From: Arctopsyche grandis
Lineage: Eukaryota; Arthropoda; Insecta; Trichoptera; Hydropsychidae
Direction: 5' to 3'
DNA length: 64,000 bases
Assembly: GCF_051622035.1 (NCBI RefSeq)
Contig: NC_135361.1
Location: 27,521,205 to 27,585,204, forward strand
The position numbers and the translations under genes are program-made. The notes under the pieces were generated by a model. It searched no databases. It worked only from the letters and a program-made list of their open reading frames with translations, and had not been told where the DNA came from. Within the stretch, counting starts at the first letter, position 1; every line of letters starts with the position of its first letter. Positions 27,198 through 58,979 of the stretch are shown in pieces.

Positions 27198-27834
27198 GAA
27201 ACTACTCGCCTTGCGCCCCCGCGGGGGTGAATCCATTGAATCGAAAAAAACAAATCGGCGCCCATGGATCGAAAAAAAAAAAATCGAATCACGTGTTCGA
27301 TGACGTCACCGATCTACGGACGACGACGACGACCAAGGATACATACATACATATATACAAAGTCTCTTTCCAAATTATAGATTAGATTATATTATTCCAT
27401 ATCAAGAAATGTCAATTTTACTATTAATTTTGGATTAATATTAAATTACGTTTACAATAAATACGACGTAATATATAATTATTTTTTTATATTTCTTAAA
27501 ATCAGAACCTAATGCCATTGTGGCGCATTAGGTTCTTCCTGTAATGCCACAATGGTCCAAAACTATTAAACTAATAAATAAATAAATAATACATCGTATT
27601 TAGGAATATAGTATGTACTTATTGAATAAAATTTGATTTTTTTTTTTTTTTTATCACTAATATCAAACCTTCATTTCATACTGATTGCACGCCACTGCAT
27701 GACGATAAAGAATATAAATTTACTAATCATATCAGTGTTCAGTACTGTTTTTGAAACGTGAGTGAGATCATCTTATCAACATTTTAAGGTAAAGGATTAA
27801 ACATCAAAAAATTAAACATCTATGCATAAAAAAC

Positions 27835-28031
27835 GGTTCGATGATGATTGCCCACAAAGCGCTCGCCCAAAGGTCACTAAAATCTCTATCATCTGGCGGT
27901 CGAAAAGTCCATCATTCTAACGATAACTATCATACTAACGAGAACTCGAGTGCCAAATATTCCTTATTCGCCATTGTCATGGCAAAAATTGTCTTCTGGG
28001 CGATCGCAATGTGCGTATTAATCCAATTACC
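27835..28031. mobile_element. MULE-type short element, family GGTTCGG, copy 1
   Basis: Starts GGTTCGATGATGATTGCC, ends CCAATTACC, and contains GTCACTAAAATCTC and GGGCGATCGCAATGTG. Same family as 34383-34579, 35134-35312 and 62228-62413; the 9-bp duplication is clear only for the last of these. Confidence 0.55.
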
Positions 28032-28294
28032 ACAAAATACCACAAATAAATATGTTAGAAATTAGTTTTAGTCCAAAGCTATCATGTTGAAAAATTAGTT
28101 TATTCCGAATTATTTTTCTTAAAATCAGTTAGGAAACGTTACAATTGTTAATTTATGTCCAGTTAGATTTTAAAATTAAAAAATTAGAACATTACTGATA
28201 ACATTGTGCTTCTGTTCATTGATATTTTTTTCGCTTTAAACCAAATAGTTGCGTTGTGAATGCTTATCAAAAACTATAGCATTTCCCCTATAAT

Positions 28295-29859: not shown

Positions 29860-32800
29860 TTATTTATTTATTTATTTATATATATTTTAGCTATCAAGCT
29901 AATTTAAAAAAAAAATACATCTTAATTATTATACTTAACTCTAAAATTTATAATTAACTTATATGTACTGTCCCTCACAGAGGTGTCTCTTCGCACCTCG
30001 CAGGAATGCATCCATGTTTTTAGCAGACCTGACGCACTCAGGGAGGGCATTATACATGAGCACACCCCTGTGAAAAACACCCCCAGCCGTCTTATTCTTT
30101 CTTACTCTACTTACAACTAGTTTGTCCTTATTTCTAGTATAAAAACTATGTTTATCTCTATTCCTTATTATATAATCATCAAAATACTTAGGTAATAACT
30201 TATGATCTAACTTATAAACAAAAGACAATGTACTAATATTTAGACTAATTCTAATACTCATCCATCCTAATTCATCTAACATACTTCCAATACTCTTAAA
30301 TCTACTCACATTCAAAATAGCTCTCATAGCTTTATTCTGTATTTTTTGCATTTTTTCTAAATCTTGGCCACTAAACAAATTAAGCACAGTGGCACAATAA
30401 ACCACATGTGGCAAGACAATTGAATTAAACACTAAAATTTTACTTTTTTTACTTAAAATATTTCTTAATCTACATAATACACCAACTTTTCTAGCCATTT
30501 TTTTTATTATATAGTCAGCGTGCATTTTAAAATTTAGTCCTGAATCTATGTATACACCTAAGTATTTTATATTTTCAACTTTTTCAATTAACTTATCATT
30601 AATTCTAATTTCATTCAATATATTTTTATTTTTACCATTCAACCACATCATTTTTGTTTTATTCACATTCAACTTTAATTTATTTTCACACAACCAGTCA
30701 TTCACATAATTTAATTCTATATTTAAAATCTCAGACATTACATCAACATTCTTTCCAATTATATATATCAATGTATCATCTGCAAACAAATGTATTTTAC
30801 ACATCTTAATTACCTTAACAATATCGTTTATATATAATATAAATAATAAGGGTCCCAATTTGGACCCTTGCGGCACTCCATGAGGTGTTACATATTCAGA
30901 GGATAACACCTTATCAATTTTTACTCTTTGCCTTCTATTATTTAAGTATGATTGAAGCCACTTTAATACTATACCATTTATTCCTAACTTATATAATTTT
31001 TGTAATAAAATATTCCTATCTACTGTCTCGAACGCTCGCTTAAAATCTAGAAAAACTGCTCCAACAACCATGCTAGATTCATCCATCGTCTCCATCCAAT
31101 CAGAAACCACCAATTGGATAGCGGTTTCTGTTGAATGTTTCACTCTAAATCCAGACTGTTCCACAACCAAACAATCATTTATACTAATGAACTCTTTCAA
31201 TTGAATCATAACGATTTCCTCCAGCATCTTCTCAACAATCGGTAACATATTGATGGGCCTCATTTCACTGGCTTTATGTGTGCCCGTAACCTTTGGTACC
31301 GGTACAATAGTAGACACCTTCCATGCATCCGGGACGGATCCCACTTCTAACGATTCATTTATTAATTTCAGTAACTGAGGTCCAACCATATCCCAAGTGT
31401 TGATTAAAATATCTAGAGTCAATCCATCCATACTAGAAACTGATTTCATGCCCTTCAATACACCATTTAATCCCTCCATTTCCACTAATTTAAACCTTTC
31501 AAACTTATTTAAACCCAAGTTAATATCATCATTCACACTATTATGCCTTGTTTGTATTGAATTAACTATATCATTCACACTATTGATGTAAAACTCATTC
31601 AATCTTTCAACCATATCCTCTTTATCATTATATACTACTCCCTCGACTTCTAATTCATTCAAAGAAACATTTTTTCCCCCGGAAATCAAAGTTTTAATTA
31701 TTCGCCACATTTTTGTGGGATCTTTTTTTGCACCATCAATATTTCTTTCATGCCAATCCCTCTTCGCATTACGTAAAACATTCACACATTTATTCCTCTT
31801 TCTTTTATACTCTAACCAAGCCTTTTCTAATTGGATTCCATCCATAGCCTTAATAATTTTATATCTTTTATAACTAACATTCTTATCAACCAAGCTTTCC
31901 TTTACTTCCTTGGTAAACCAAGGTTTCAGCTTATGCTTATGCATGATTCTTGTGGTTTTTACGCATTTACTTTTAGAATATGTTATATTACGATACATTA
32001 TCTCCCACATTTCATTCACACTATCACCATCCTTTCCCCATACACACTCCTTTAACAATTCATTCATCAATTGATAATCAATGTTTTCTCTTTCAGTCAC
32101 CTGCATATTTTTAAGTCCTCCGTTACTAAACCGCTGTCCCAAAAACATGTTGACAATAGAATGGTCTCCTATTTTCGGTACATCTTTCACCTCACACCGC
32201 AGATCCATTATATTCGTTATAACCAAATCAATGAGAGAGCTTGATAAATTATTCACTCTCGTTGCTTCCGTCACTTTTTGTTTAAAACCCAATTCATTTA
32301 CCCAATTTCTCAACTTTTTTACATAAAATTCTTCTGTCTGTAACCAATTAAAATTCCAGTCCCCAAACATAATTATATTTTTACTCACATCTATACTTCT
32401 TTCACTCAATTCTTCTAAAAATTTAAGAAATCTTCCACTTCTACCATTCGGAGAGCGGTAAATTACTAGCAAAAACACAGTAACTCCATTCACAAGCAGA
32501 TCCACACCAATTGTCCAAAACTCACCATCAACCTTATTAACTATTACATTACCGTAACTTAAATCATCCCTTAAATACAATAGTACCCCACCCGTATGTC
32601 TAGAATTAGAGTCACATCTCAAAACACAATATCCATCTATATTCAGCTCAAAATCTTCAAAATCACTAGTTACATGCGTTTCACTTAAACCTATAAATAA
32701 TGGTTTTTGACTTACAGTTAAACTCCAAACCTCATCCTTGTGAGCAAAAAAACTTTGTACATTTATACCGATACCTTTTGGTGGTTGCTATATATTATTA

Positions 32801-33905: not shown

Positions 33906-34897
33906 CAAAGTCTCTTTCCAAATTATAGATTAGATTATATTATTCCATATCAAGAAATGTCAATTTTACTATTAATTTTGGATTAATATTAAATTACGTT
34001 TACAATAAATACGACGTAATATATAATTATTTTTTTATATTTCTTAAAATCAGAACCTAATGCCATTGTGGCGCATTAGGTTCTTCCTGTAATGCCACAA
34101 TGGTCCAAAACTATTAAACTAATAAATAAATAAATAATACATCGTATTTAGGAATATAGTATGTACTTATTGAATAAAATTTGATTTTTTTTTTTTTTTT
34201 ATCACTAATATCAAACCTTCATTTCATACTGATTGCACGCCACTGCATGACGATAAAGAATATAAATTTACTAATCATATCAGTGTTCAGTACTGTTTTT
34301 GAAACGTGAGTGAGATCATCTTATCAACATTTTAAGGTAAAGGATTAAACATCAAAAAATTAAACATCTATGCATAAAAAACGGTTCGATGATGATTGCC
34401 CACAAAGCGCTCGCCCAAAGGTCACTAAAATCTCTATCATCTGGCGGTCGAAAAGTCCATCATTCTAACGATAACTATCATACTAACGAGAACTCGAGTG
34501 CCAAATATTCCTTATTCGCCATTGTCATGGCAAAAATTGTCTTCTGGGCGATCGCAATGTGCGTATTAATCCAATTACCACAAAATACCACAAATAAATA
34601 TGTTAGAAATTAGTTTTAGTCCAAAGCTATCATGTTGAAAAATTAGTTTATTCCGAATTATTTTTCTTAAAATCAGTTAGGAAACGTTACAATTGTTAAT
34701 TTATGTCCAGTTAGATTTTAAAATTAAAAAATTAGAACATTACTGATAACATTGTGCTTCTGTTCATTGATATTTTTTTCGCTTTAAACCAAATAGTTGC
34801 GTTGTGAATGCTTATCAAAAACTATAGCATTTCCCCTATAATCAGTGGCGGCTCGTGCATAGGAACTGCGGCGCTGCAGCACCCCCAGAAAAATTAC
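33906..34897 (+). repeat. Segmental duplication, right copy
   Basis: Counterpart of 27358-28349 at a constant offset of 6548 bp. Here the sequence continues through the complete hAT-type MITE, so this side preserves the ancestral order at the right end. Confidence 0.85.
34383..34579. mobile_element. MULE-type short element, family GGTTCGG, copy 2
   Basis: Apparently identical to 27835-28031, as part of the segmental duplication. Confidence 0.55.
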
Positions 34898-35836: not shown

Positions 35837-38800
35837 ATGTTGAAAATAAACAAAGAACTATTGCCAATAAAGGCACACTTCTTTTTATTTTTCGCCGGTT
35901 AGTAACGCTTTCATACAAGTTTTACATTAAAACTTGATTATGTATACGGATAAATATAATGACTGAACGATTTCAGCAATGGGTCCACTTTTACCACAAA
36001 TGCCCGTATACGGAAAGCAACTCGGAATATCACCAGATGTTATGGGTCTCGTCACCGCTGTTCTTCCAATATTATGGGCTCTGGCGAAGCCTGCAATCGG
36101 ATTCCTAGTCGACTATTTTCATGTATGTTATTTTATTTTCCTGCTGTATATATGCGTCTATTGGTAATTCTATCAATCAATACTAATCATGTGTATTTAC
36201 AGTCTTATAGAAAGTTCGTTTTCATGTGCTTGGTGTTTTCAATGAGTGCCTCTTACTTTTGCATTTACTTTTTGCCCGAGCCGCAGTACAATAACTATAT
36301 AAAGTCATCGAATATTACAACATTTCGAGACTTTCCGAATGATCGTCTCACCACTTGGATTTACCTAAAGCCGTGTGATACTGATGTAAGTATTTATTTA
36401 GTTTCGGAGAATAGCAATGTTACTTTGATATTAAATTATCTTGCTATTTTAGATTGACACGTCTGGCTGCTCAAACAATTCTGATCTTTACCAAGCGAGC
36501 TGTGGATGGATTTGTAAGTCGCAATCGAATACGTCTTCGACTGGCATCGCCGATAGTAACGTTTGGAATTTTTGGATTGAAAGAGAGGATATGGAGACGG
36601 GAACGTTGACTGCTTTATATTACGAGACTGAGGCGGAATCTTGCGGCTATTTCAACATGAACGATTATAATGATAGTTTGACCGGAGAAGAAGACGGTGT
36701 TAAATGTATTTTTAGGAACAACTGTAGATTTCTGTCGTGTGCCTTCTTTGATGCTAGAATCGAGGATGTTAATTTGACGATGGGACTCGAAGACGATGAA
36801 TACCTTGATAAATCTCATACCAAGAACGATTATAATTTGTACACGACGATAACATTTTGGGGATTCGTTATATTCATGTGCACCGGTACTGTGGGATACA
36901 ATGTTGCTAATTGCATTGGAGACGCTGTCTGTTTAGATGTTTTGGGTGAGTATTTTTGAATAAGCGGCCATAATGGGATGGGTTTTTAGTAATTATTTAA
37001 CCATTTGCACTCTTAAGTTTCGATTTTCTTTGGAAGTGCCTCATATTTTAATGGATTCAATCATTTATAGAATGACTATGATCGTTAATTTTATGGATGC
37101 ATTTTAAATTGATCACAATAATGGAACTTATGTTGCTTCTTATGTAGGTATATTCGAAAGCATTTCAGGTGGCCCTTCCTTTCAATAAAACGCTACATCT
37201 CAATCAGAGCCTTAGGCCGGGCCGCACCGCTCAACTCGCGAACAACTTGGTTGACGCGACGTGTCGTTCTGAAGTTGCAAAATGACCGATCCCATACACA
37301 TTGTATGGGGTCACATTTCATCGGGCCGCACCCTGCAACATGTCGGTCTCTCGGGTAATAAAGCCTGACGATGGTTGATATCTGTTGAAGCCGTTGGGTC
37401 TGGTCGCATGGATTTTATGACCTGAACGACCGACATGCCGGACCCATCAACAAAACTCCATACAAAAAAAACACGTCAACAATCTCGACATGCCTCTATT
37501 TTATGAATGATCAATCTATGAGATAATTTCTCAATTAATTGCTCAATATATATATGAGGTAATTGAACTAAAATTTGATTCAGATATCATTTATTGCACG
37601 TAATAAGTTTGTTGAATCTATCGAGTACAATAAACATATATATAATTTGAAATAACAATGGAATTTGCCGGAGATCGAGGAAGAAGAGACGAAATACAAT
37701 TAGTTAGAGAAAATTACAAAAAAAATGTAGTCTACAAATTACATATGTGAATAATGTAAATAACAGTGTCCTTGTGTATTTAACAATAGACAGCGGTTTT
37801 GGAGGACTTTCGACACGTGCAACATTTGCATAGAGCTGCTGCAATAAATCTTCTGAACAATGATTTCTAAACAGGTCTTGTACTGTATCGTCTTTACTCA
37901 TTGTATCATATTGAAATCTCTAATATATATTATTTTAAATGGACAGGGTGTGTGGCTGTGTCATGTAAAATTAACAATTGAAATAATAGAGATGTTGAAA
38001 ATCCTAATAAATTACAATAGATGCGTTAAATGCGTATTGTACGTATTACGTATTATTTTAGTCTCTATAGTGAAAAAACTAGTACCACGTGCGGTCGTCT
38101 CAGGTCGTCCCCGAGTTGAAAGGAAGGCCGCACTCGCAGACTTTCCAGCAACAAAACTCGTCAACAAAGTTGAGCGGTGCGGCCCGGCCCTTAGGGCGCG
38201 ATCACACAGCGAGGGATGCGGTATGCTGTACGTGGGATATTTTTTTTAGATAGTTTTAAACATACAAAAAAAATATGTCATATACGCGGTATATACATGG
38301 GATCGTCTATTCATTGGAGCGGTCTCTTTGAAATTCTATTGAATTGTTTATACTAACTTGGCGGTGATATATACCAATTCGACCCTTCGGACGGAGCTTG
38401 ACAGTGATCGATAATTTTAATAAAATGATTGTAGGTCCTGAAAATGGCATGAAGTATGGGTTTCAACGTGCTTGGGGCACGGCTGGCTATGGCCTCACTG
38501 CTTTGCTTTCGGGTCTCATCGTAGATTACGTGAGCGGTGATCAGCCGCACAAAGATTTCACTCCAGCCTTCATCCTAATGGCAGCTTTCACCTTGGTAGA
38601 TTTGTACTTCTGTAGGAAGTTAGAGGTGATCTATTCGTATGCATATTTATTATACGTGTGATGAGAACATGTTGTACAGGACGTTGTCGTTTTTATTTTA
38701 GTTACCGAGCATGACCCGTCCTGTTGACGCGGGTGGTACCCTGATGAATCTTTTTAAACAACCACCAATTTTTATTTTTGTGATATTTGCCATAGTCGTA

Positions 38801-41556
38801 GGAATTCTGGACAGCTTTATTATTTATTACATGCTTTGGTATATGTATATCATCATTTATTTTTATTTTCATAGTATGTGTTGTGAAACGATTTTGTATT
38901 TATACATATATGAGTAATACAAAGGTGGAGAAGTGATATAACCAAAAAATGCTCAAGATTTAGTTTTTTTTAATCGTTTAAAATTTAAATCTCACAATAT
39001 TGTAAAATGTGTATTTTATGTAATGATACTTATCCTACAATGATATGCGAGAGGGATGATTAAAAATGAAAGCCTTACTATTACTAGGGTATATTTCATA
39101 GGTTGATACAGTCCAGGTTTACACTTCGTTCGTTCAGGAACATACTAGTTTTTTCATACACGAACCAATCTGACCAGTTATAGTGTATACGAAATGTTGA
39201 ACAAGTTTGTTCATGCATAAACTATTAGGCATAATCGTTTGTCCTATCTTCTATGTATGTATGTATGCTTACCCTGGGTTGCTATATTTTAAAAATGAGC
39301 GCAAACAAATTATAGTGTGGGTATCTATTTCTCCATAAAACACAAGTTGAACGATTGCATCATCGCGTTCCTGTACGAGCATGCAGAGTCGACCTTGCCC
39401 GAAATATTTTCATTCACACAAGGGCAAAGACACCATCAACTTGCTCCAAATAAAACCTCGAGGCCATAAGAACCCCCGAGAGCATGATCTCATCATACAG
39501 CTACGCATCAAACCTAACATAATCTCACCAGCCAAGACCAGGATATAAACTAACGCACCAGCGCCAGACGCCAGATAGCTTCTGAAGTTCAGCCTACCCA
39601 CTCCTCCGAAGTCGACTGCCCACTCCTCCATACAATAATGTTAAACATAAATAAAGATCCTCTTAAAAACTCAAACTAATTTCCACAGGTTGGGAGACAG
39701 TCGAAACCTATATTAGCAATTTAGTAATGTTTTTCCATAGGATTTCCCCTTTAAATACTTATCGGTGAGTATTTGAAGATATGTAGCTTTTGACTGTTGG
39801 CATTTAAATTAAAACCAATAGTTTGTATATGAACAAGCTTGTGTGTTCATGAACAAACTGGAGTGAACACTTGGACTGTTACATATTCACTAATAAGCCG
39901 AGATTTCTTAAATGTAATTTGTGAGAGTTTTTATATACATACATGTGATATTCTGATAATTATTTTATTTCATTTTTAATTAAATGTATTAAAGGTTACG
40001 CCACTATTCCACTGATAGATTCATAATATGTACATTAAAATTATAATTATTTATAATGAATGATTTAAGGTTTATGGAAGATGTGGCGATTCAATCCAAC
40101 AACCTCGGAAATATCAAGTTCTTGGAGGGTTTGACCATTGCAGTCGAGAGCTTCGGTGGAGAAATATTGTTTTTTGCATACTCGGGTATTGACTGAAACT
40201 TTTTATAACAATTAGGGTAAATACTGCAATTATTGGCTCTTTGGATTTCAATGCTAAAAAAATTAGAACGTTCTGAAATTTCTGAGAACAATTTGTGTCC
40301 TCAAAGGTTCACTATTAACCCTTTACCCGCGGCAATAAATATAGCAAACAAGCCCTGTACGCGGCACCTTTTTCGCGAATTTAGCAATCGAATTTTCGAC
40401 CTTAAATATAGATTTTAATATTTACTCAAGTAACCAGATATGTTAATTAACACATAAAGTATTATTTTAAACAATAAAATACATAATATATCTCGTAGTT
40501 TTGGATTAATTGTCAAATAATCATTCTTCATAATTGTATGAAGACGTGACGTCACATAAACGAGGTTTCAGTATGGTTCCACAAAAAACTAATTTTTGAC
40601 TGGTACATATTCATTTTAAGCAAATTGAATAGATAGCATTCAACTCTCAGTAATATATTCAACCAATTTTGAACCTTAAAACAGTTGAAATAGGCGCATA
40701 TAAGGCTCAAAATCCCGTGCAAAGTTCAGAAATTCTATGGAAGACAGCTGCGCTACAGACTTGTCGCCCAAAGCTTCCATAGAAGACGGCCGCGGGCAAA
40801 CGGTTAACTATGTAATAGCAGTCAATTCAAGTGGCCAATAACTGTAACGTTTCTCTTACAAATATTAATATTGTTTTCAGGTAAAATATTAAAGTACCTT
40901 GGTTTTCAACACACTTTAAGTCTTGGCTTGTTCTGTTATGGTCTGCGATTGTTGTCTATATCGTTAATCACTCAACCTTGGCATTTTGTATTGGTTGAAG
41001 TAAGTTTGTTCTACATAATCTACATATGTATATAGAATAATAAAGCAACATTTTAATAATGAACGATTTTTAGATGTTCTTACAAGGACCGACTTATGCT
41101 CTTTGCTATGCTACAATCGTCGGATACGCTGCGAGCGTAGCCCCACCAGGCTTGTCTGCGACTCTTCAAGGCATACTCGCTGGAATGGACGATGGCGTCG
41201 GTAAGTCTCGTGCTGAATTTCGCGTTCAAATATAATCTATGTCTCGTTATTGATTTTGTCTGTTTGAAGGTTTCTGCATCGGTTCACTTATTGGTGGACT
41301 TTTATACAATTCGTTTGGTGGCAAAAAAAGTTTCCTCATAATGAGCTTATTGGCGTTTGCTTTCGCTCTGATTCACGTTATAGTGAGTTTTACCATCGCA
41401 GACTACAATAAGAAAGTGGTGAATGTTGGGGACGGACACGTCGTTGAGGAGGAATTGAAAGAGTTGAGGAAGAAGCCCGACTCGTCACCGATCGATACAA
41501 ATGGTGATGTTAAGTTAAATACGAACGATATGGAGAAAGGCGAGACTGAAGATTAA
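35837..41556 (+). CDS. Major facilitator transporter, MFSD6 type (10 coding exons, 619 aa)
   Basis: Exons: 35837-35897, 35977-36122, 36203-36385, 36453-36945, 38435-38625, 38702-38838, 40070-40185, 40881-40999, 41074-41200, 41270-41556. Every junction is GT-AG with matching phase, and the product is open from ATG to TAA. The N-terminus (INKELLPIKAHFF, then GPLLPQMPVYGKQLGIS and LAKPAIGFLVDY) and the mid-protein YGFQRAWGTAGYG are the conserved blocks of the MFSD6 branch of the MFS_1-like family. Membrane segments are visible at about residues 12-30, 40-65 and 73-92, followed by a large Cys-rich extramembrane loop (about 93-255), then further helices to about 570 and a hydrophilic C-terminal tail. 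It is a multi-pass membrane protein; the substrate is unknown, and MFSD6-type proteins are poorly defined functionally. Six introns are 67-80 nt; the three long ones (4, 6, 7) each contain a mobile element. AATAAA occurs at 41956. The ATG choice rests on the conserved start and an open 61-nt first exon. Confidence 0.93.
37215..38190. mobile_element. Harbinger-type element in intron 4, 976 bp
   Basis: Termini GGCCGGGCCGCACCGCTCAA and, inverted, GGGCCGGGCCGCACCGCTCA; TTA duplicated on both sides (37212-37214, 38191-38193). It contains only short open frames (for example a 65-codon frame on the - strand at 37704-37901), so it is non-autonomous or badly deleted. Just after it, 38215-38430 resembles repeat family G weakly and runs up to the exon 5 acceptor. 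Confidence 0.85.
39400..39715 (+). repeat. LTR-like fragment in intron 6
   Basis: The end, AATAAAGATCCTCTTAAAAA ... CCACAGGTTGGGAGACAGTC GAAACC, matches the end of a second copy at 47330-47640 (AATAAACGATCCTCTTTC ... CATAGGCCGGGAAACGGTC). Both carry an AATAAA about 60 bp before the shared end, as the R-U5 part of an LTR would. The outer boundaries are unclear. The open frame on the - strand here is not a gene. Confidence 0.4.
40319..40803. mobile_element. TTAA-flanked MITE in intron 7 (family CCCTTT..GCGGC), copy 1
   Basis: Termini CCCTTTACCCGCGGC and, inverted, CCGTTTGCCCGCGGC; TTAA on both sides (40315-40318, 40804-40807). piggyBac-type duplication and CCC start. Copies at 57104-57610 and 58502-58971 are in the opposite orientation. 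No coding capacity. Confidence 0.85.
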
Positions 41557-47940: not shown

Positions 47941-49531
47941 GAAAAGGGGTACATCGTAAAAAAATACATTTATACATTTCTAAGTTCCAAAGTATGATTT
48001 AAAGGCGGTAGTGATAAGTCATGTTTTTGACTGTTCGCTTGCATATTCTTGTTGGTCGATGAATCAATGCGAGAGAAAGAGACAGCTATATTTTCGTAAG
48101 CTATTGTTTTCGTCGCTTTTGGCGCGTGGTTACTGAGCCATGCAGTCGCCTGTTAGCCTTACCTATGTGCGTTTGCGCGTTGATACTTTAATACAAAAAT
48201 AGTCAAAAACATGCTATAGGACTAAAACTTTTTTATGTTGATATATGAAATGATTAATAAGGCATATATTGAACCCATTTGTATTGAGAAAAGCTATATT
48301 TTGATTTAAAAATTCCGCAGTCTTACTCGACCCCGGTTCGGGACATTCGTTCGATCTCAACGCTCCGTCCTTCAAGGGTTAAAAGGCAATAAATTTAAAT
48401 GGCCAGTATTTTAATCAATTTGGGTAAGTTTATACTTGCCATTTAACATTAATACTGAACGATGGATACTGACCGTTTAATATAAACACTGAACTTTAAT
48501 ATTTAAATACTGACAAAAATAAACAATTACCAGTGAAATACAAGCCTTTTTAAATTGTGAAAGGATAGAGGAAATAAGATTATGGAAATTCATTGTTGAA
48601 TATAAATTAATGTCTTCATTAACGAATAAAATACAGATACCGAATAGTACTGTATTTTATTAATTTTTATACATAAAATTCCATGAAATTTATTGTTTAA
48701 AAATAAGGGGGGGGGTGGGACGTTGAATACAATCTGCCCAAGGGCGCTATATACCCTCGAACCTGGCCTGCGTTTTATACATATATGTATATTGTAGAAA
48801 CTAATATAAATTATCAATGTTGATAACACGGTGTACAAGTATACCGATAAATTAATTTTGTATACCGCTCTTTATTTCAGTATGTATTTTTGTTAAAAAT
48901 AATAAAATAAAATAAAAGAAGCATTCGCTTTATCGTATTTATTAAAAAAAAACAAATACATTATATATATAAGCAAAATTAATCACAATTTCTATGATAT
49001 AAAACTAATTTTCTAATAATTTCAAATATTGCATTACATATTAAAAAGTACAACGAGCGAAATGGAATAAAATATGCTGTAGCACCTTTTTCAAAAATAT
49101 TGTATATATATATATATTTATTTGTATTACATACTACATGAGTATTATAAGCGTTAAGATAGTTGCCGTGTAAAAATTTGTACGTGTGTATTGCCTTTTT
49201 ATAGATTACAATAACCTACTCTAAATTTCAACATTGCTATATATTGTAGATAGCATCTGTGAATGAATTAAAAAAAATGTGGGAAATTTTCACCTACTTA
49301 AAAGTTGAAACCTTATGATAACAATACACCAAAATACAACAAAACAATAGATTCATCGATGAAAAATTCCTTTTGAAAGCGTGCTCACGATTCTCTACCT
49401 ATACCTAATTTTGAAAACATTATAAATCGGCTTAATTTTATAAGTACAAATTTTTTAAATTAATTAAATCTTCAACTTCAGTCTTTGTTATATTATTAAT
49501 GTCGATATAAGTATTGATTGCTCTTCAGATA
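47941..49531. other. No gene recognised
   Basis: AT-rich DNA with a G-run at about 48708-48717. This is the 3' flank of the first RING gene; AATAAA-like signals are frequent and none can be singled out. Confidence 0.5.
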
Positions 49532-50883
49532 CTAAGCGATGAATTCTCTGCACAGAGGACAGGTACTAGTGTACTCCTTTAGTGCCTCGTAGCACTTATT
49601 ATGCAGGAAATGACCGCATCGCAATTCTTTCACTTGATTTTTTGAATTGAAACTATTCATACATACGCTGCAATCATCGTCCGCTTTAAATTCGGGCCTG
49701 AAAACAAATAAGATTTCGATTAATCAATATATTATGTTAGAGCGACATTGCATGTATAATATATGAAATAAAGTAAAACGGTTTTTATATATTTAGCACT
49801 TTTGCCAATTATTTCTTATATATATGAGAATTACATACAGTATTTAACGCTTTAAAGCTCTACAAACACAGGGAGTGCCAGAACTCTATGTGAGGCTATT
49901 AACTGCAATATATAAGAACGCCACAGCTTTGGTTAAACTTTTTTCAGATATAGATTTAGTATAGGAAAAGGAGTAAGGCAAGGAGACACCATCTCTCCTA
50001 AACTATTCAAAGGGCGTTTGCAGGAACCTGGAATGGGAAACAGCAGGAGTAAGCATCAACGGTCGCTTCTTGAGTCATCTTCCGTTCGCAGACGATATAG
50101 TTTTAATAGCTCGCGATCCAGCTGACCTACTTAACGGACTGACACAGCTGGACAAGGAAAGTATGATTTAAAATTAGACCAAACTAATGTTCATTAGTTA
50201 TTTCATGCCTGATAGCATTTCATTAGACGATAAAATAGTAGAAGTAGTAAATAATTATTTATATTTAGGTCAAATAATAGACATGTCCGGTAGTAAAGAA
50301 GAAGAAATAAAGAAACGTATTAAATTAGGATGGAGTGCATTTGAACGAATGAATGCTGTTTTAAAATCAAAAAATGTCACGCCGCCTGAAGAAAAAGATC
50401 TTCGATCAATGCGTTTTGCCAGTGATGACGTATGGATGTGAAACTTGGACATTGAACGCCAAGATGCTACACAAAGTCCAATTCATTCAAAGAAGTCTGG
50501 AACGCTGTATGCTCGCCATAACAAGGAAAGAAAGGAAGCAGAATACATGAGTGAGAAGTATGACAAGGGTAGTGGACAAAGTGGATAGAGTAAAGAGATT
50601 GAAATCGACCGAGCTAGCCAGCAGCATAGCTCGGTCGTTAAAGCTTCTGCTTAGCGTCGAGAGGCGCCGGGTTCGATCCCATGAGCTGACCTTGATTGAA
50701 AAGAATTATTTAAGAGTATATCTGTAGTGCTGCTGGTCAGACCTGGATATTTGTGACTCCAGGACGATCGTTTCCTATCAGAGTTTGCCAATTTTCTCTG
50801 ATTTCATTGATGAAACGGTTCCCGGTAAAATTGGCTAAATATCGTACCTACCTACCATGTCACCACTATTTGAGATTGATTAA

Positions 50884-50974
<91 letters not shown>

Positions 50975-52531
50975 GAATGTCTGTGTGTGTGTGTGTGTGT
51001 GTGTGTCTCGAATAGGCTGTTAAACGGGAATGAGTGTCATTGCAACGCAATCATTTCAAATGTGTTCGCTACCTGCGTTGTTCCGAAAAATGGGAACAGG
51101 AACGAGAACGGGAATTGCATGCGTTCAGCTAGTGTACAATAAAATTTATGTACAATTCATAGATGTCTCGTTAATTTGCGAGTTTTTCAGTGTCTCGTAA
51201 TTCAGCGACTTGTTTAATAAAAAAAAAATAAAACTGCAATGTTTGTAATTGGCCAGGAAGGCGCATTGGGGTGACCTGTAAGGCCTTCCTGGTTTATATG
51301 TAAAAAATAAATAAATAAAAAAATAAAATGGCCACGTTGCTAGAAGAATGGACAAAAGGACGATCGGAAAAATGCACTCTAGATAGTTGCACTCTCGAGA
51401 CATACAAACTATCAAATATGCCCAAGGAGAACTAACCAACGCAATAGAATTCCACAAAAAAGCCTCAAGGTGGTATTTATATGTTGTCCGAGAGGGCAAA
51501 CCCTTTTTTGTGGAATTCTATTGCGTTTGCTTTTTGAGCGCTTTTGAAAATTAGGACTTCTCAAAACTGCACCACTATTCAATGCAATTTAGTGCATTTT
51601 TCCAGGAACCAGACAAAAGAAGTGTTGGAATAGTACCCGAGAGAATGCAAAAGGGTAAAAGGAAGAGCGCAGGGAAGATGGGTAGACGAAATTGTGAGCA
51701 AAACAGAGACGAGTGGAAACGTGTTGAAGAGGCCATCATTCAGCTATTGTGGATGTAGATGATGATTTTGATATGAGGATTACATTTATTTACCGTTATT
51801 CATTTCGGTTGGTGAAATTACGAATACACATTTACCTGGATGTGATCTTACCATAGAAGTAGAATGCATAGAATGGTCATCGTTAACAATAGTATCGTCT
51901 AAAAGCGAGCCATCGAAGAGAGAGACGGAAAGTCAGAAGAGAGACAAGAGAGAGAGAGAGACGAAATTTAGCAAACAATGAACAAACTCTGCCGCTCAGA
52001 GTTTTTGTAGCAACATTTTTAGAGGCTGAGAGCGATTCTATGCATTCTACTTCTATGGATCTTACACACATTGGGACAAAATTGAGAAAAACCAATTTTT
52101 AAAATCGGCTATTACAAATTTATTTTTAAACCTATATATAATCTCACAGATCAACCTTTACACTGAATGACTAGAATATTCGATTCATTAAGAAAAAAAA
52201 TTGATAAACAACATTTGAATTGCATGTTAAAAATTCAAGCATTCGGGTCAAAACTTGCTATCAGTAAAATATGATGAAATTGAATAAAATTTACAGACCT
52301 TATCTGCCTAGCACCACTTTTAATTTGTACAAACATGACATTATTACGAGCAATTAAAATATTACCTTCTTTTTTGAGGTGCTTTACGTCGAATTACATT
52401 ACTTCGTGGTTCTTCGTATTGTTGAGCTGTAGGACTATTGAACAGGTTAGTGAAAAAATACAGTGTGACGCCAATCGTCACACCGAGGAGTACAGTGGTG
52501 ATTGCTGCCGGCAAAACCATCTTGTTCAGCC
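49532..52531 (-). CDS. Mini transmembrane RING-H2 protein A (106 aa, two coding exons)
   Basis: Coding exons on the - strand: 52520-52366 (ATG at 52520) and 49697-49532 (TAG); the first exon starts after an acceptor at 52532-52533, implying a 5' untranslated exon further right. The donor AG|GTAATA and acceptor CAG|G join in phase 2. Residues about 4-25 (AAITTVLLGVTIGVTLYFFT) are a membrane helix, followed by a basic, polar linker (about 26-58). The second exon encodes a complete C3H2C3 RING: C61-x2-C64, C79-x-H81-x2-H84-x2-C87, C98-x2-C101, ending five residues later. RING-H2 proteins are usually E3 ubiquitin ligases; the membrane position and tiny size suggest one that recruits E2 at a membrane, substrate unknown. 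I do not recognise a named ortholog. The intron (2.67 kb) holds an RTE relic, a SINE and microsatellites. A paralog-like gene lies 3.5 kb upstream on the same strand. Confidence 0.8.
49857..50616 (+). pseudogene. RTE-type LINE reverse transcriptase relic
   Basis: Broken frames together read as the RT of an RTE/BovB-type element: VPELYVRLLTAIYKN, then GKGVRQGDTISPKLF, then HLPFADDIVLIA, then NYLYLGQIIDMSG and KKRIKLGWSAFERMNAVLKS, then MTYGCETWTLN. Internal stops and frameshifts separate these blocks. It lies in the intron of RING gene A in the opposite orientation. Confidence 0.8.
50617..50880 (+). mobile_element. tRNA-derived SINE (+ strand)
   Basis: An A-box-like TAGCTCGGTCGTTAAAGC (50627-50644) and a B box GGGTTCGATCCC (50669-50680) are followed by a tRNA-unrelated body (CTGCTGGTCAGACCTGGATA, CAGAGTTTGCCAATTTTCTC). 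It directly follows the RTE relic. Related copies: 12362-12490, 56562-56792 and a variant at 54785-54954. Confidence 0.8.
50886..50971. repeat. (AT)n microsatellite, about 43 units
   Basis: Uninterrupted TA/AT run at the end of the SINE, followed after ATGAATGTC by a GT run (50983-51006). Confidence 0.95.
50979..51134 (-). mobile_element. Dispersed retroposon-like repeat, reverse copy of 905-1215
   Basis: On the - strand it starts CTAGCTGAACGCATGCAATT, contains CCCGTTCTCGTTCC and CATTTGAAATGATTGCG, and ends in a CA run (the GT run of 50983-51006). Confidence 0.6.
51438..51527. repeat. Perfect 25-bp inverted repeat
   Basis: 51438-51462 (AACGCAATAGAATTCCAC and on) and 51503-51527 are exact inverted copies around a 40-nt loop. 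It may be the trace of a small foldback element. Confidence 0.8.
51530..52365. other. Intron of RING gene A; nothing further recognised
   Basis: AT-rich with a GA-rich run at about 51915-51965 and an inverted pair of AGAATGCATAGAAT / ATTCTATGCATTCT motifs near 51860-51875 and 52033-52047. Confidence 0.5.
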
Positions 52532-52533
52532 CT

Positions 52534-53964
52534 GAAGCAACAAGTATAAAATTATTTCGTGGCAATACATAATAACTACCCTACTATGACCATATTAATA
52601 TACATGTGTAAAAAAGTATCACTCTAAAATGGTGCTATGAAAAATAGAAGGGGATGTGCGTATAGTGGATTGGAATTATAAATAGTATTCATACTAAATG
52701 AAACGGTCTATAATATATATGTATGTATGTATGTATAAACGTCATTGGTTACCTTTGAAGGAAATTGAATATGGTTTAGTTGAAATTTAATTCTCGGTGC
52801 TACGAACTGTGCTGTGAGAAACTTTAAATGTTTTTTATGAAAGCTATTATATAACCAATCAAAATCTAAATGTACAAAAATATTTTCGTGCGATTTCTTG
52901 AGCGATGCGCAGCATAAACGTCAAACGGCTGGGATGATTCAACCGTAAGACTTCACTTAACGGCCATTGATTACTATGCAAAATTGTCATTTTATATTTT
53001 GCTTTTTTTTCTAAATAGAGCTGTGATGTGTGGACAACAGTCTCTTTCTCCGATAAAATGGTCATTCAGACTGTATTTGTTGAGGTTTTTATATATTGAT
53101 TTCATTGGTCTTTGAAACGGCCTTATAATAATTTAGAAAATAAGTATTTAAAAAAATCACAGCTGTCATCCATTAGGATTAAAATAATGCAATGACGGTA
53201 AATTTATATACCGGTATCAATTAGTAGAGATCAGGAACATCACTTAGTATGGGAAACACTAGTCGTTGGCCATTCGGATCTTAAAAATTGGGGCTCCAGG
53301 TTGTTAAAAAAGCATGACTCCAACATCATCATTTCATTTAATCGGTCTGATTAATGATTCAATTTTTTAAATGTAAAATATATATTTTTTTCCATTTTTG
53401 TTCCTATATGTGTACAACCATTTCAATGCAGCGATGGATCCAGACATTTTTCAAAGGGCACAAATGAACTTATAAACATAACACAAACTTTATATATCCT
53501 TTTCAATATTTTTGATGTTTATAAACTAATTACATACAATGATATTGTAAGGCCGGATCGGTCCTGTGATTTAGGACCGATTCCTTTCCCAGTCGTCACA
53601 TTAAATAGTTGTGCATTATTTTACCCCCATAATATTATACATATTAATATGTACAATAAATATAGAACGTATGGAAATTTGATTATCTAGGTATAGAAGT
53701 TGACACCTTTCAAATAAAGTCCATTTCCATTTCCTAGTTGCTACCTACTATAACGTTTTTTTTTAAGCTTTTTTTTTATAAAATCAGCCTCATTTTTGAG
53801 ATCCTTAAGTTTAAATTTCAATATAAATTTTCTTTTTTCATTTACATATGTAAATATGTAGGGGCTCTTTCGAAAATCCTCATAGGAATAAATTGTAAGC
53901 TGAAAGATAATACACGAGGGAGGGATTTTCCCTGCAGCCCCCCCCCCTGTGTTTCCAGGCACAT

Positions 53965-54032
<68 letters not shown>

Positions 54033-54784
54033 ATGTGTATGTAAATACAGTCGCAATTTCACCGACCAATGCGACGAATGGGCTAATTTTCTAATATCTC
54101 TGGCGCACTAAGAGAGATGTCCATATTAAAGAGTAAGTTCATGTAAATAATTTAAGTTTTTTTCTTAAAATATTTGTATTTTTATTTATGAATACATACA
54201 TGATATTGAGGATTTTTAAAATACCAGCCTTCTTATCAGTTTGGCGCAAATATGAGAAAAATACGAAGATAGAAACACTGTGTCTCAGATATGCATCCAT
54301 TGTTTATTGGTGAGTAACTCTCGCAGCAATTCAATATTTACATTATTAAGTAAACTAATAAAAATAAATCAATGCGATATCGGATTTGGAGTCGTTCCAT
54401 TTTTAATGACTGTCTCTGGCCAAAAAGTCACGACCCCAGAACCCTGAAAATAATACACTAATGCCAATTGAAAATACATATTGCTATTGGTTAGTTATAA
54501 ATAGGAGCGGAGTTGCAGTTGCTCGATTTATAAATTTTATTTTATTTTATCGAACATGAACACTCTCCTTTGAGGATCACAACAAAGCGATGAGTGCACT
54601 TAAACAGATACAATACAATCAATATATGTACATAAGCATTTTATACAATGCGAATTCATAAAAACATCCACAGTGACATCTATAGAGAAATTTTTGCAGC
54701 ATTTTATAATCAAACTGGCGAACCTCAAGACGCTGAATAACTAAAGATTGACAAGAAGGATAGGAAAGGAGATGCCAATTTTTA
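52534..54784. other. Upstream of RING gene A; no coding exon recognised
   Basis: Should contain the promoter and 5' untranslated exon of RING gene A, but neither can be placed. An (AT)n run lies at 53969-54030 after a C-run. The 52860-53065 - strand open frame overlaps the dispersed repeat shared with 43850 and is not called. Confidence 0.5.
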
Positions 54785-54954
54785 CAGTAATCGTTTCAAT
54801 GAAAATCAGAAAAATCGGCAAACTCTGACAAGAAACGATCAGCCTGGAGTCACAAACCAAGGTCTGGCCATCAGCGGGACTCTAGTGGAACTTGAACCCG
54901 TGACCACTCTGCTCAAAAGCATAATATGCTAACCGCTAGTCCACGTCACTGGTT
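54785..54954 (-). mobile_element. tRNA-derived SINE variant (- strand)
   Basis: On the - strand a B-box-like GGTTCAAGTTCC precedes TGGCCAGACCTTGGTTTGTG, CTCCAGGCTGATCG and CAGAGTTTGCCGATTTTTCT, parallel to the body of the SINE at 50617-50880 but clearly diverged. The A-box region is GACTAGCGGTTAGC. Confidence 0.6.
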
Positions 54955-55204
54955 CTGGACAAATAATTACTCCAGAACCCTGAAAATAATACACTCATGC
55001 CAATTGAAAATACAAACATACATATTGCTATTGGTTAGTTATAATTTTATAAATAGGAGCATCATTGAGGTCACAAAAGATGAAATTAAAGTCATCAATT
55101 GAAAATTTACGCGCTTCAGTCAAATTCTCGCGATTGTTAAATGATTAATTTTGGGACCATTGTTATGTGAATTATGTCATTACATAAAAACGGTTACAGT
55201 TTAC

Positions 55205-55446
55205 GGTAAACGGACTACTAGTCATATGTGAACCGGTCACAGGACAACCAGTCGCTCTAGATCGGTCACACGTGATCACCCGTCACACTAAAACTGGTCA
55301 CACCCGAAAATTGGTCACGAAAAACTGGTCACACCCAAAAATTCGACCAATTTTTAATTTTAGGGTGTGACCAGTTTTAGTGTGACCGATCTAGAGCGAC
55401 CGGTTGTCCTGTGACCGGTTCACATTTGACTAGTAATCACCGAACC
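55205..55446. mobile_element. MULE-type foldback element, 9-bp duplication, 242 bp
   Basis: ACAGTTTAC stands on both sides (55196-55204, 55447-55455). The arms (GTGAACCGGTCACAGGACAA and CTCTAGATCGGTCACAC) are inverted over about 100 bp, ending GGTTCGGTGATTACTAGTCA at the right and a diverged GGTAAACGGACTACTAGTCA at the left. A 9-bp duplication with long inverted arms is the Mutator/MULE pattern. Confidence 0.75.
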
Positions 55447-55459
55447 ACAGTTTACATAC

Positions 55460-56020
55460 TTGAATAAGGATTGGCGTCGTTCGTTTTAGTGTGAATATGA
55501 AGAAAAAAAAGTCTGAAAAATTTTTTAAAATGATTTTATTTTCTATAAAAATTAAATCTCAATAGATTATAAAAAATAGTATTCAAAATATTTGTTATTA
55601 AAAATATTTTTTTTTTAGATTAATAATGATTTTATACTGTGCAAATTTAAATCTCTTAAAATCAGTTCTTGAATACAAAAAATATCACATATTTTTTTTT
55701 AAAATTAAATACACTTTTTTTTTAATTCATACATTATTAATTAATTAATTAATTTTTCAATTTCATATATTTTTACATATCACACAAGATTTTTTATAAA
55801 CATAATATTTTTCCATAAAAATATCCATTTAAGCCGATCAAACTATGTATGTGTGTATGTACTTTTTCTTGGACTTGGGAACAGCATTTTATTTCAAAGT
55901 AAAAATCAAAACTTGAAATCATGCAGTATAAAATCAACAAAGGATATCATGAACGTAGTTTCTCGTGAGCCTGTAGTAAATATAGTCATCATTATCCATC
56001 ATACAATAAACATTACATTT
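55460..56020. other. No gene recognised; 3' flank of RING gene B
   Basis: Very AT-rich. A 78-codon + strand frame (55853-56089) runs antisense over the RING exon end and is not called. Confidence 0.5.
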
Positions 56021-58103
56021 TCATCGACAAAGTCGACAAAATCTATAAGTATTTACGCAATTATTGTGGACCCAATGATCGCAATTTAAACGTTGCCTAT
56101 TTACAGTTAAAGTTTTCAGGCAATAAGCACATTGTTCTTCACTTCTGTGTCTGAAAATACATAAGTACATAGATTATTTTTCCGCTTTATCAAAACATAT
56201 ATGTATGTATTTATTTGCTTTTCTAAAACATAAAATTAGCTCAGAGTACTTTTAATCATTAATTAATGGTTGATCTTTACGCAACTAATCATTCAACTTC
56301 AAGAGTATTGCATTTACTGTGATTCTATAGACGATTTTATGTAACTAAATAGAATATTTTTTGGAAAGTGTTCACAATTTCGTTCCAGAGTAAATGGGAA
56401 GAATATTGAAATGGGTTTGAAAGTTCACTAGCTTGATAAATAAATTGACTTATTTAATTTTATATTTTTCTCACATGATGCCATTACGGTTTGCCCCTGA
56501 GCGACACCTAACACCTATATTATTAAGCTTGCACATACATATATAAATCATATTCAAATAGTGGTGACATAGCGGGTAGGATGTTTTGCCAATTTGATGA
56601 GGAACTGTTTCAACAATGAAATTAGATGAATTGGCAAACTCTGATAGTTAAGGATCTACATAGTTACAAATATCCAAGTCTGACCAGCAGCACTACAGAA
56701 ATACTTCCGAATAAATTCTTTTCAATCGAAGTTAGCCCAGGGCTTGAACCTGGGAACCTCTTGGTGGTTAGCATTAACGATGGCTAACATGACTTACATC
56801 AGTGTTCGCCAAGTGAGCTGTCTTCGGGCGTGAACCTTTTTTTTCGATTAATGGAGGACGAATACCAGTCAAGAAACTGGTATTGTTCTCGGATATTTTG
56901 AAAATAAATAACTGCAATGAATACTATGCCCGTAAATTTAGACTATTTTTGTTAACTACTAAATACTTTTTTCTCTAAGCAAGACATTATTTAGCTGCCA
57001 GCAGGGATGTTCATATTATTTAAAAATAATACTCTCAAAGACAACCGAATGGTTCAAATCAGGAAATAATGTTTATTACGGACAGACAGACCGATATCGT
57101 TAACCGTTTGCCCGCGGCCGTCTTCTATGGAAGCTTTAGGCGACAAGTCTGTAGCGCGGCTGTCTTCCATAGAATTTCTGAACTTTGCACGGGATTTTGA
57201 GCCTTATATGCGCCTATTTCAACTGTTTTAAGGTTCAAAATTGGTTGAATATATTACTGAGAGTTGAATGCCATCTATTCAATTTGCTTAAAATGAATAT
57301 ATACCAGTCAAAATTAGTTTTTTATGGAACCATACTGAAACCTCGTCTATGTGACGTCACGTCTGTTGAACAATGGCGACGATACGTCTCAATTGTATGA
57401 AGAATGATTATTTGACAGTTAAGCCAAAACTACGAGATGTATTATGTATTTTATTGTTTAAAATAATACTTTGTGTTAATTAACATACAATCTGGTTACT
57501 TGAGTAAATATTAAAATCTGTATTTAAGGTCGAAAACTCGATTACCAAATTCGCGAAAAAGGTGTCGCATACAGGGCTTGTTCGCTATATTTATTGCCGC
57601 GGGCAAAGGGTTAAATATAAGTGCAAGTCTAAATACAAAAGTGAGTATAAACCTTCCCGACAAAGAGAAAAATGAAACTATGGATTTTATCTAAAATAAT
57701 TAACATGAAAATATTTACATTGTTATTGATTTATTTTATTACAATACATAGTACTTGTTTATTTTTTTTATTCTGATTTATTTAACTAAAATACATAATA
57801 TATTTTATATTGAAAACCACTTCAACTGCATCTATGGAAAAAAAGCGACCAATAAGATAAGACTAGAAAAATATCCAAAATATTGAAAAAGCCAAAATGC
57901 AGCTCGCTTGGTGAACACTGACTTACATCTTTAAAAGGATACATACAAATAATATAATATATATGTATATTTATACGTACCCAGCGCTGCCATACTCGTG
58001 ATAGGCTTGGCTTCTAAATGCAGCATACACTGAATGCACACTAAATGCTAAAATTCCTAAAATAATACCACCTATTGTGACTAAAATGCCGTTCGCCATT
58101 TTT
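56021..58103 (-). CDS. Mini transmembrane RING-H2 protein B (82 aa, two coding exons)
   Basis: Coding exons on the - strand: 58099-57981 (ATG at 58099, just after a TTTTCAG acceptor at 58104-58105) and 56150-56021 (TGA). The donor GG|GTACGT and acceptor CAG|A join in phase 2, the same phase as gene A. Residues 4-24 (GILVTIGGIILGILAFSVHS) are a membrane helix, followed by a short polar linker. The second exon gives C47-x2-C50, C63-x-H65-x2-H68-x2-C71, C78-x2-C81, a full C3H2C3 set, with the stop one residue later. The spacing C71-x6-C78 is shorter than in gene A (x10), and no Pro stands in the last pair (CRLC rather than CPLC), so E2 binding may differ or be lost. The likely role is a membrane E3 ligase or a modified relative; substrate unknown. 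The intron (1.83 kb) holds a SINE and a TTAA-type MITE. Confidence 0.75.
56562..56792 (-). mobile_element. tRNA-derived SINE (- strand), near full length
   Basis: On the - strand: a B-box-like AGGTTCAAGCCCTGG, then CTGTAGTGCTGCTGGTCAGA, CTTGGATATTTGTAAC, and the tail CAGAGTTTGCCAATTC ... GGCAAAACATCCTACCCGC. It lies in the intron of RING gene B. Confidence 0.7.
57104..57610. mobile_element. TTAA-flanked MITE, copy 2 (intron of RING gene B)
   Basis: Termini CCGTTTGCCCGCGGC and, inverted, CCCTTTGCCCGCGGC; TTAA on both sides (57100-57103, 57611-57614). Same family as 40319-40803, in reverse orientation, 507 bp. The 71-codon frame inside it recurs in copy 3 and is a repeat artefact. Confidence 0.85.
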
Positions 58104-58501: not shown

Positions 58502-58971
58502 CCGTCTTCTATGGAAGCTTTGAGTGACAAGTCTGTAGCATGGCTGTCTTCCATAGAATTTCTGAACTTTGCACGGGATTTTGAGCCTTATATGCGCCTA
58601 TTTCAACTGTTTTAAAGTTCAAAATTGGTTGAATATATTACTGAGAGTTGAATGCCATCTATTCAATTTGCTTAAAATGAATATATACCAGTCAAAATTA
58701 GTTTTATGTGAAACCATACTGAAACCTCGTCTATGTGACGTCACGTCTTCATACAATTATGAAGAATGATTATTTGGCAATTAATCCAAAATTACGAGAT
58801 GTATTATGTATTTTATAGTTTAAAATGATACTTTATGTGTTAATTAACATATCTGGTTACTTGAGTAAATATTAAAATCTGTATTTAAGGTCGAAAACTC
58901 GATTGCCAAATTCGCGAAAAATGTGCCGCATACAGGGCTTGTTCTCTATATTTATTGCCGCGGGCAAAGGG
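58502..58971. mobile_element. TTAA-flanked MITE, copy 3 (left terminus deleted)
   Basis: Highly similar to copy 2 and flanked by TTAA (58498-58501, 58972-58975), but the left terminus reads CCGTCTTC: the stretch TTTGCCCGCGGCCG after the first bases is gone. The right terminus is intact. Confidence 0.8.
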
Positions 58972-58979
58972 TTAAGAAT

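Follow-up and report, generated by a model that had tools for sequence, protein, structure and literature searches.

Two small predicted genes lie side by side on the minus strand of the window, as we call the whole stretch of 64,000 nucleotides that was analysed (C7:27521205-27585204). The upstream one, gene A, encodes 82 residues and the other, gene B, 106 residues. In agreement with a preliminary description of this DNA, each gene joins an exon coding for a putative membrane helix to an exon coding for a RING through a phase-2 intron, and the coordinates, GT-AG borders, phases, lengths and ligands given there were all as we found them (Table 1). The claim that the RING ends at the stop codon holds nearly, as one residue follows ligand 8 in A and five follow it in B.

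Table 1. Features of genes A and B, in positions of the window
Feature	Positions	Strand	Basis
Gene A, 4 bases preceding the ATG and abutting a strong splice acceptor, at which a 5'UTR intron probably ends	58100..58103	-	
Gene A, first coding exon: ATG, then a hydrophobic helix (residues 4-28, approximately) and a short linker	57981..58099	-	coordinates, phase 2, hydropathy
Gene A, intron of 1830 bases, GT-AG, phase 2	56151..57980	-	splice-site scoring
Gene A, exon 2: compact RING, C3H2C3 ligands, stop codon	56021..56150	-	ligand pattern, Pfam
Gene A, RING core, ligand 1 to ligand 8	56027..56131	-	pattern scan
AATAAA, first one past the stop codon of gene A, at a distance of 127 bases	55888..55893	-	consensus match only
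Gene B, 11 bases preceding the ATG and abutting a strong splice acceptor, at which a 5'UTR intron probably ends	52521..52531	-	
Gene B, first coding exon: ATG, then a hydrophobic helix (residues 2-23, approximately) and a basic linker	52366..52520	-	hydropathy, charge
Gene B, intron of 2668 bases, GT-AG, phase 2, simple repeats inside	49698..52365	-	
Gene B, exon 2: canonical RING-H2, stop codon	49532..49697	-	ligand pattern, Pfam
Gene B, RING core, ligand 1 to ligand 8	49550..49672	-	pattern scan
AATAAA, first one past the stop codon of gene B, at a distance of 409 bases	49117..49122	-	consensus match only

Splice sites and probable leader exons

Splice sites were scored on the minus strand of the window with a generic weight matrix. 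The donors of A and B ranked 68th and 99th of 3282 and their coding acceptors 34th and 17th of 3049, so that each of these four sites lies within the top 0.6 to 3% of the GT or AG sites of that strand. Furthermore, an acceptor scoring better than the coding one of the same gene stands just before each start codon, 4 nt from the ATG of A (exon starting at 58103, ranked 18th of 3049) and 11 nt from that of B (exon starting at 52531, ranked 9th of 3049). On the same strand, an equally good acceptor at most 15 nt upstream was found for 5 of the 1169 ATGs at the level of A and for 2 of the 1169 at the level of B. These strong acceptors directly 5' of both ATGs suggest that the two gene models probably miss one untranslated upstream exon each. 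As 4 and 11 leave different remainders on division by 3, the two genes are unlikely to share an upstream coding exon read in one phase. The identical exon logic already claimed for the two genes thus extends to an acceptor shortly before the ATG. The GC content was 0.42 in exon 1 of A, 0.43 and 0.42 in exons 1 and 2 of B and 0.35 in exon 2 of A, with 0.32 and 0.36 in the introns; the higher GC of three of the four exons speaks for protein-coding genes.

RING domains and membrane segments

The C3H2C3 pattern was present at exactly two places in the six frames of the window, those of A and B. It was absent from 100 first-order and 2000 second-order Markov windows, as well as from the reversed and the complemented window. 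Since the pattern occurs at these two places only and is missing from random windows, the two RINGs are not a product of chance. No further one-frame C3H2C3 pattern was found within 30 kb on each side of the window, where the sole RING found is that of neuralized. Additionally, a search of the genome (475.7 Mb assembly, 189 contigs) gave no additional close copy of either gene among the best candidates scored.

Both proteins had been described as membrane-anchored RING-H2 proteins, with a zf-RING_2 profile comparison proposed as a check. A and B each carry all eight C3H2C3 ligands in an allowed RING-H2 spacing. Against Pfam zf-RING_2 (PF13639), with a curated cut-off of 27.3, B passes at 45.2 bits (E 1.1e-11) and A fails at 16.4 bits (E 0.011), and for this reason we term A RING-H2-like. 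The earlier assignment is therefore sustained for B, and for A it reaches as far as the complete ligand set. Among PDB sequences, B matched 63 at E <=1, headed by AMFR (6.5e-8) and with the E3 ligases RLIM and RNF165 also leading, and A obtained 16 matches at E <=5, the best at E 0.01. A profile built from A and B together finds AMFR at 5.8e-9, which is mostly the contribution of B.

The second half of the RING is shorter in A, where six residues separate ligand 6 from ligand 7, compared with ten in B. The same six-residue spacing occurs in a C3HC4 RING of this genome (L086), so the fold allows it. In B, a small aliphatic residue (Val63) lies in the stretch that separates ligands 1 and 2, ligands 7 and 8 are followed by Pro99 and Arg102, respectively, and Leu91 replaces the usual Trp; at the matching positions A keeps the arginine (Arg82) and has Tyr49, Tyr75 and Arg79 at the other three. 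We take Val63, Pro99 and Arg102 to be usual E2/ubiquitin-contact positions, so that three of the four would be kept in B and one in A. The E3 activity of A is doubtful because of this single retained residue and the shortened gap between ligands 6 and 7.

The hydrophobic segment is long enough for a helix in both proteins (best 19-residue Kyte-Doolittle mean 2.14 in A and 2.07 in B). The linker that follows it has a charge of +5 overall in B, with -2 in its first 15 residues, and of -1 in A. According to the positive-inside rule, the linker of B would agree weakly with a cytosolic C-terminus, to which that of A adds no support. The two helices also have G-x3-G, a common helix-pairing motif, at aligned positions.

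Origin of the pair

An ancient tandem duplication had been proposed for the two genes. We find duplication plausible from the rarity of the exon layout in this genome and the weak likeness of the helix exons, and the RING exons alone give no proof of it. At 26% protein identity between A and B, the local alignment score of the helix exons was reached by 32 of 5000 full shuffles and by 199 of 5000 segment-preserving shuffles; for the global score the counts were 3 and 106 of 5000, respectively. The rarity of the layout comes from a survey of zf-RING_2 matches in the genome, which are found at 57 places at E <=0.1; B ranks third and A is not among them. Fifty of the 57 places were taken in, 27 with all eight ligands in a single frame and 23 partial in one frame. 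A candidate phase-2 acceptor at most 12 codons before ligand 1 was present in three of the 27, and B alone among the 50 has, in addition, its stop codon no more than 10 codons past ligand 8. As this survey used the best three above-threshold acceptors per place, other genes with the layout may be missed by it, and the tail length in two of its rows (L069 and L070) is meaningless.

It is unlikely, although it deserves some weight, that A and B are not duplicates and that RING exons of separate origin became neighbours by chance. In this regard, the RING of A scored 76 against that of B (reached by 2 of 2000 ligand-fixed shuffles, and by 3 of 5000 in a separate ligand-fixed test), 72 against Arkadia (1 of 2000) and 66 against a plant RING (0 of 2000). 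The RING of B scored higher with AMFR (110) and with two RING frames from elsewhere in the assembly (L003, 107; L004, 106) than with A. A is therefore not tied to B by its RING sequence alone, being barely nearer to B than to Arkadia. At the DNA level, comparison of the two gene bodies gave nothing better than E 0.67, limited to short words. Against a separate origin stand the strand, intron phase, intron place, helix exon and acceptor-ATG arrangement common to both genes, a combination not seen at the other zf-RING_2 places examined (50 of 57), together with the weak similarity of the helix exons. The upstream regions of A and B share one 15-base exact match (E 0.017), which we did not count as evidence of homology.

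A lower probability is given to A being a decaying paralogue or pseudogene, with B as the gene that works. The Pfam score of A below the cut-off, the absence of three of the four usual contact residues, the GC content of its exon 2 close to intron level and the two repeat copies that flank its exon 1 would all fit such decay. The reading frame, splice sites, eight ligands and pre-ATG acceptor of A are nevertheless intact despite its low identity to B, and this counts against it, since without selection over such a time some of them should be gone.

A single transcription unit, in which a shared untranslated leader joins either first exon and exon 1 of A may skip to exon 2 of B (helix of A with RING of B), seems improbable to us. 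With phase 2 at its end, either first exon suits either second exon, so that this splice would also be in frame, and the common strand and order and the strong acceptors directly before both ATG exons would be expected from it as well. Two genes with their own leaders account for these acceptors equally well, no common leader was located, and the AATAAA close behind the stop codon of A means that this gene can end alone.

It is very improbable that the hydrophobic N-termini are cleaved signal peptides of small secreted RING proteins comparable to the SPRINGs of grape phylloxera. Those are portrayed, in PMC6892190, as short, fast-evolving proteins with an N-terminal hydrophobic stretch and a RING, encoded by adjacent copies in tandem clusters, and Val-Tyr-Ala at residues 25-27 of A would fit the -3/-1 rule; the same paper defines SPRINGs by a signal peptide without a transmembrane segment and describes a large expansion and a median of 252 residues, whereas A and B are far shorter, are two copies with no expansion around them or close copy among the best genomic candidates scored, have hydrophobic stretches of a length unusual in signal peptides, with no charge ahead of them, and, in B, show no good cleavage site by eye.

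Taking these points together, we consider it reasonably probable that A and B are adjacent protein-coding genes and old tandem paralogues, each encoding a minimal single-pass membrane protein.

A derivation of A or B from neuralized, the next gene upstream, was rejected: its RING belongs to another class (zf-C3HC4_3), its last exon starts in phase 0, and the RING of A scored under the shuffle mean against it. Given the different class and phase, we regard the proximity of neuralized as chance. This gene is on the same strand just outside the window (L009 1218-4121, window-equivalent 65218-68121), with its stop codon 7.1 kb upstream of gene A; PF07177 matches it at 2.2e-75 over two stretches, and its RING exon matches zf-C3HC4_3 at 6e-14.

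Possible working and surroundings of the genes

The best reading of these sequences is that B may be a working membrane-anchored E3 ligase and A its diverged, perhaps weak, paralogue. The short N-terminal helix would insert co-translationally as an uncleaved anchor and leave the C-terminal RING facing the cytosol, where that of B would recruit a charged E2 and ubiquitinate membrane proteins nearby or B itself. Because neither protein has another domain, the choice of substrates would fall to the helix. A could be a weak ligase, a regulatory partner of B or a gene in decay. Both genes may be expressed and have E3 activity, A less probably than B. As a long shot, by analogy with MdmX and Mdm2, the two proteins could form a two-gene minimal membrane E3 in which the helices would contact each other via their G-x3-G faces and the RINGs would do so in the cytosol, B providing the E2 site and A, with most of its contact residues lost, the non-catalytic half; this would be about the smallest membrane-bound heterodimeric ligase, held together by the adjacency of its genes.

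A and B are unusually short, yet they are of an already known kind of protein. The best surveyed membrane RING-H2 family is that of the plant ATLs, for which PMC3161093 gives 124-993 residues and a GLD motif between helix and RING in about 82% of the helix-bearing members. ATLs resemble A and B in having one or more N-terminal helices, a RING-H2 towards the C-terminus and little more. They differ in being a plant family and, by the range in PMC3161093, in reaching at least 124 residues against 82 and 106, which makes it fair to call A and B close to the smallest possible membrane RING proteins, as had been done. By eye, Gly-Leu-Asp is absent from both proteins, and being shorter and without this motif they are not ATLs. 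Among animals, RNF24 and RNF122 are small Golgi/ER membrane RINGs with an N-terminal membrane segment and a cytosolic RING; in PMC10357820 RNF24 is a single-pass protein of 148 residues in Table 1 and has two predicted TM domains in the prose, and PMC4021871 presents RNF122 as a small membrane RING like it. A and B are shorter than both, and the RNF24 RING (2ep4) matches B at 7.7e-5, behind AMFR, RLIM, RNF165 and others. AMFR (gp78), the top PDB sequence match of the B RING, is a large multi-pass ERAD ligase with the RING alone in common with B. Compact RINGs of the IAP/MUL1 type (C3HC4_3) share with A the six-residue spacing of ligands 6 and 7 and differ in ligand 5, which is Cys in them and His in the C3H2C3 set of A.

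A literature search found no minimal insect TM-RING pair, which is no proof of absence in print. Scans of viral contigs gave 22 pattern matches with B, one with A and 48 with the A-B alignment, no relative being confirmed among them; they say little on animal relatives, since these collections contain no insect genomes. If both genes are expressed, they would illustrate how little sequence suffices for a membrane-bound RING ligase (a helix, a short linker and a RING, with no separate substrate-binding domain), and they would be handy small models for whether a helix alone picks substrates. Otherwise, A and B are a routine addition to the animal membrane RING genes, easily missed by annotation pipelines.

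Several other features were observed in the window and the assembly. Direct repeat copies, 91-97% alike by block, lie at 57118-57614 in the intron of A and at 58502-58975 upstream of A, on the two sides of its exon 1; their ends look inverted by eye, in a MITE-like manner. Three contigs of 28-36 kb, C96 (L003), C116 (L004) and C127 (L007), contain uninterrupted RING-H2 frames of 263-423 residues, two of them Asn-rich, and may come from an organism that lives together with the host. A family of short RING frames that resemble one another (CPICTEIY...CPICR), with ligand 8 and an Arg as the last residues of each, is dispersed over contigs C11, C180, C5, C1 and C5 (L050, L051, L053, L056 and L080, respectively); these frames could have arisen by duplication or represent read-through into an intron. 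Six of the 13 contigs C1-C13 (29.5-42.7 Mb) start with CCTAA arrays and three with N.

Elsewhere in the window, GC-rich tandem arrays at 22-34 kb and 60.5-61.2 kb leave several frames open, with repeats such as GAAPHEAGPP and MGRSPMG. A minus-strand open frame of 942 residues (29959-32787) resembles a LINE endonuclease/reverse transcriptase by eye. It is flanked by an identical plus-strand frame of 90 residues present twice (27793-28065 and 34341-34613), a repeated segment without a match in Pfam. Lastly, plus-strand exons at 38368-38661 and 41254-41556 match MFS_1_like (1.5e-6) and MFS_1 (4.8e-4, below the cut-off), respectively, and belong to a transporter gene.
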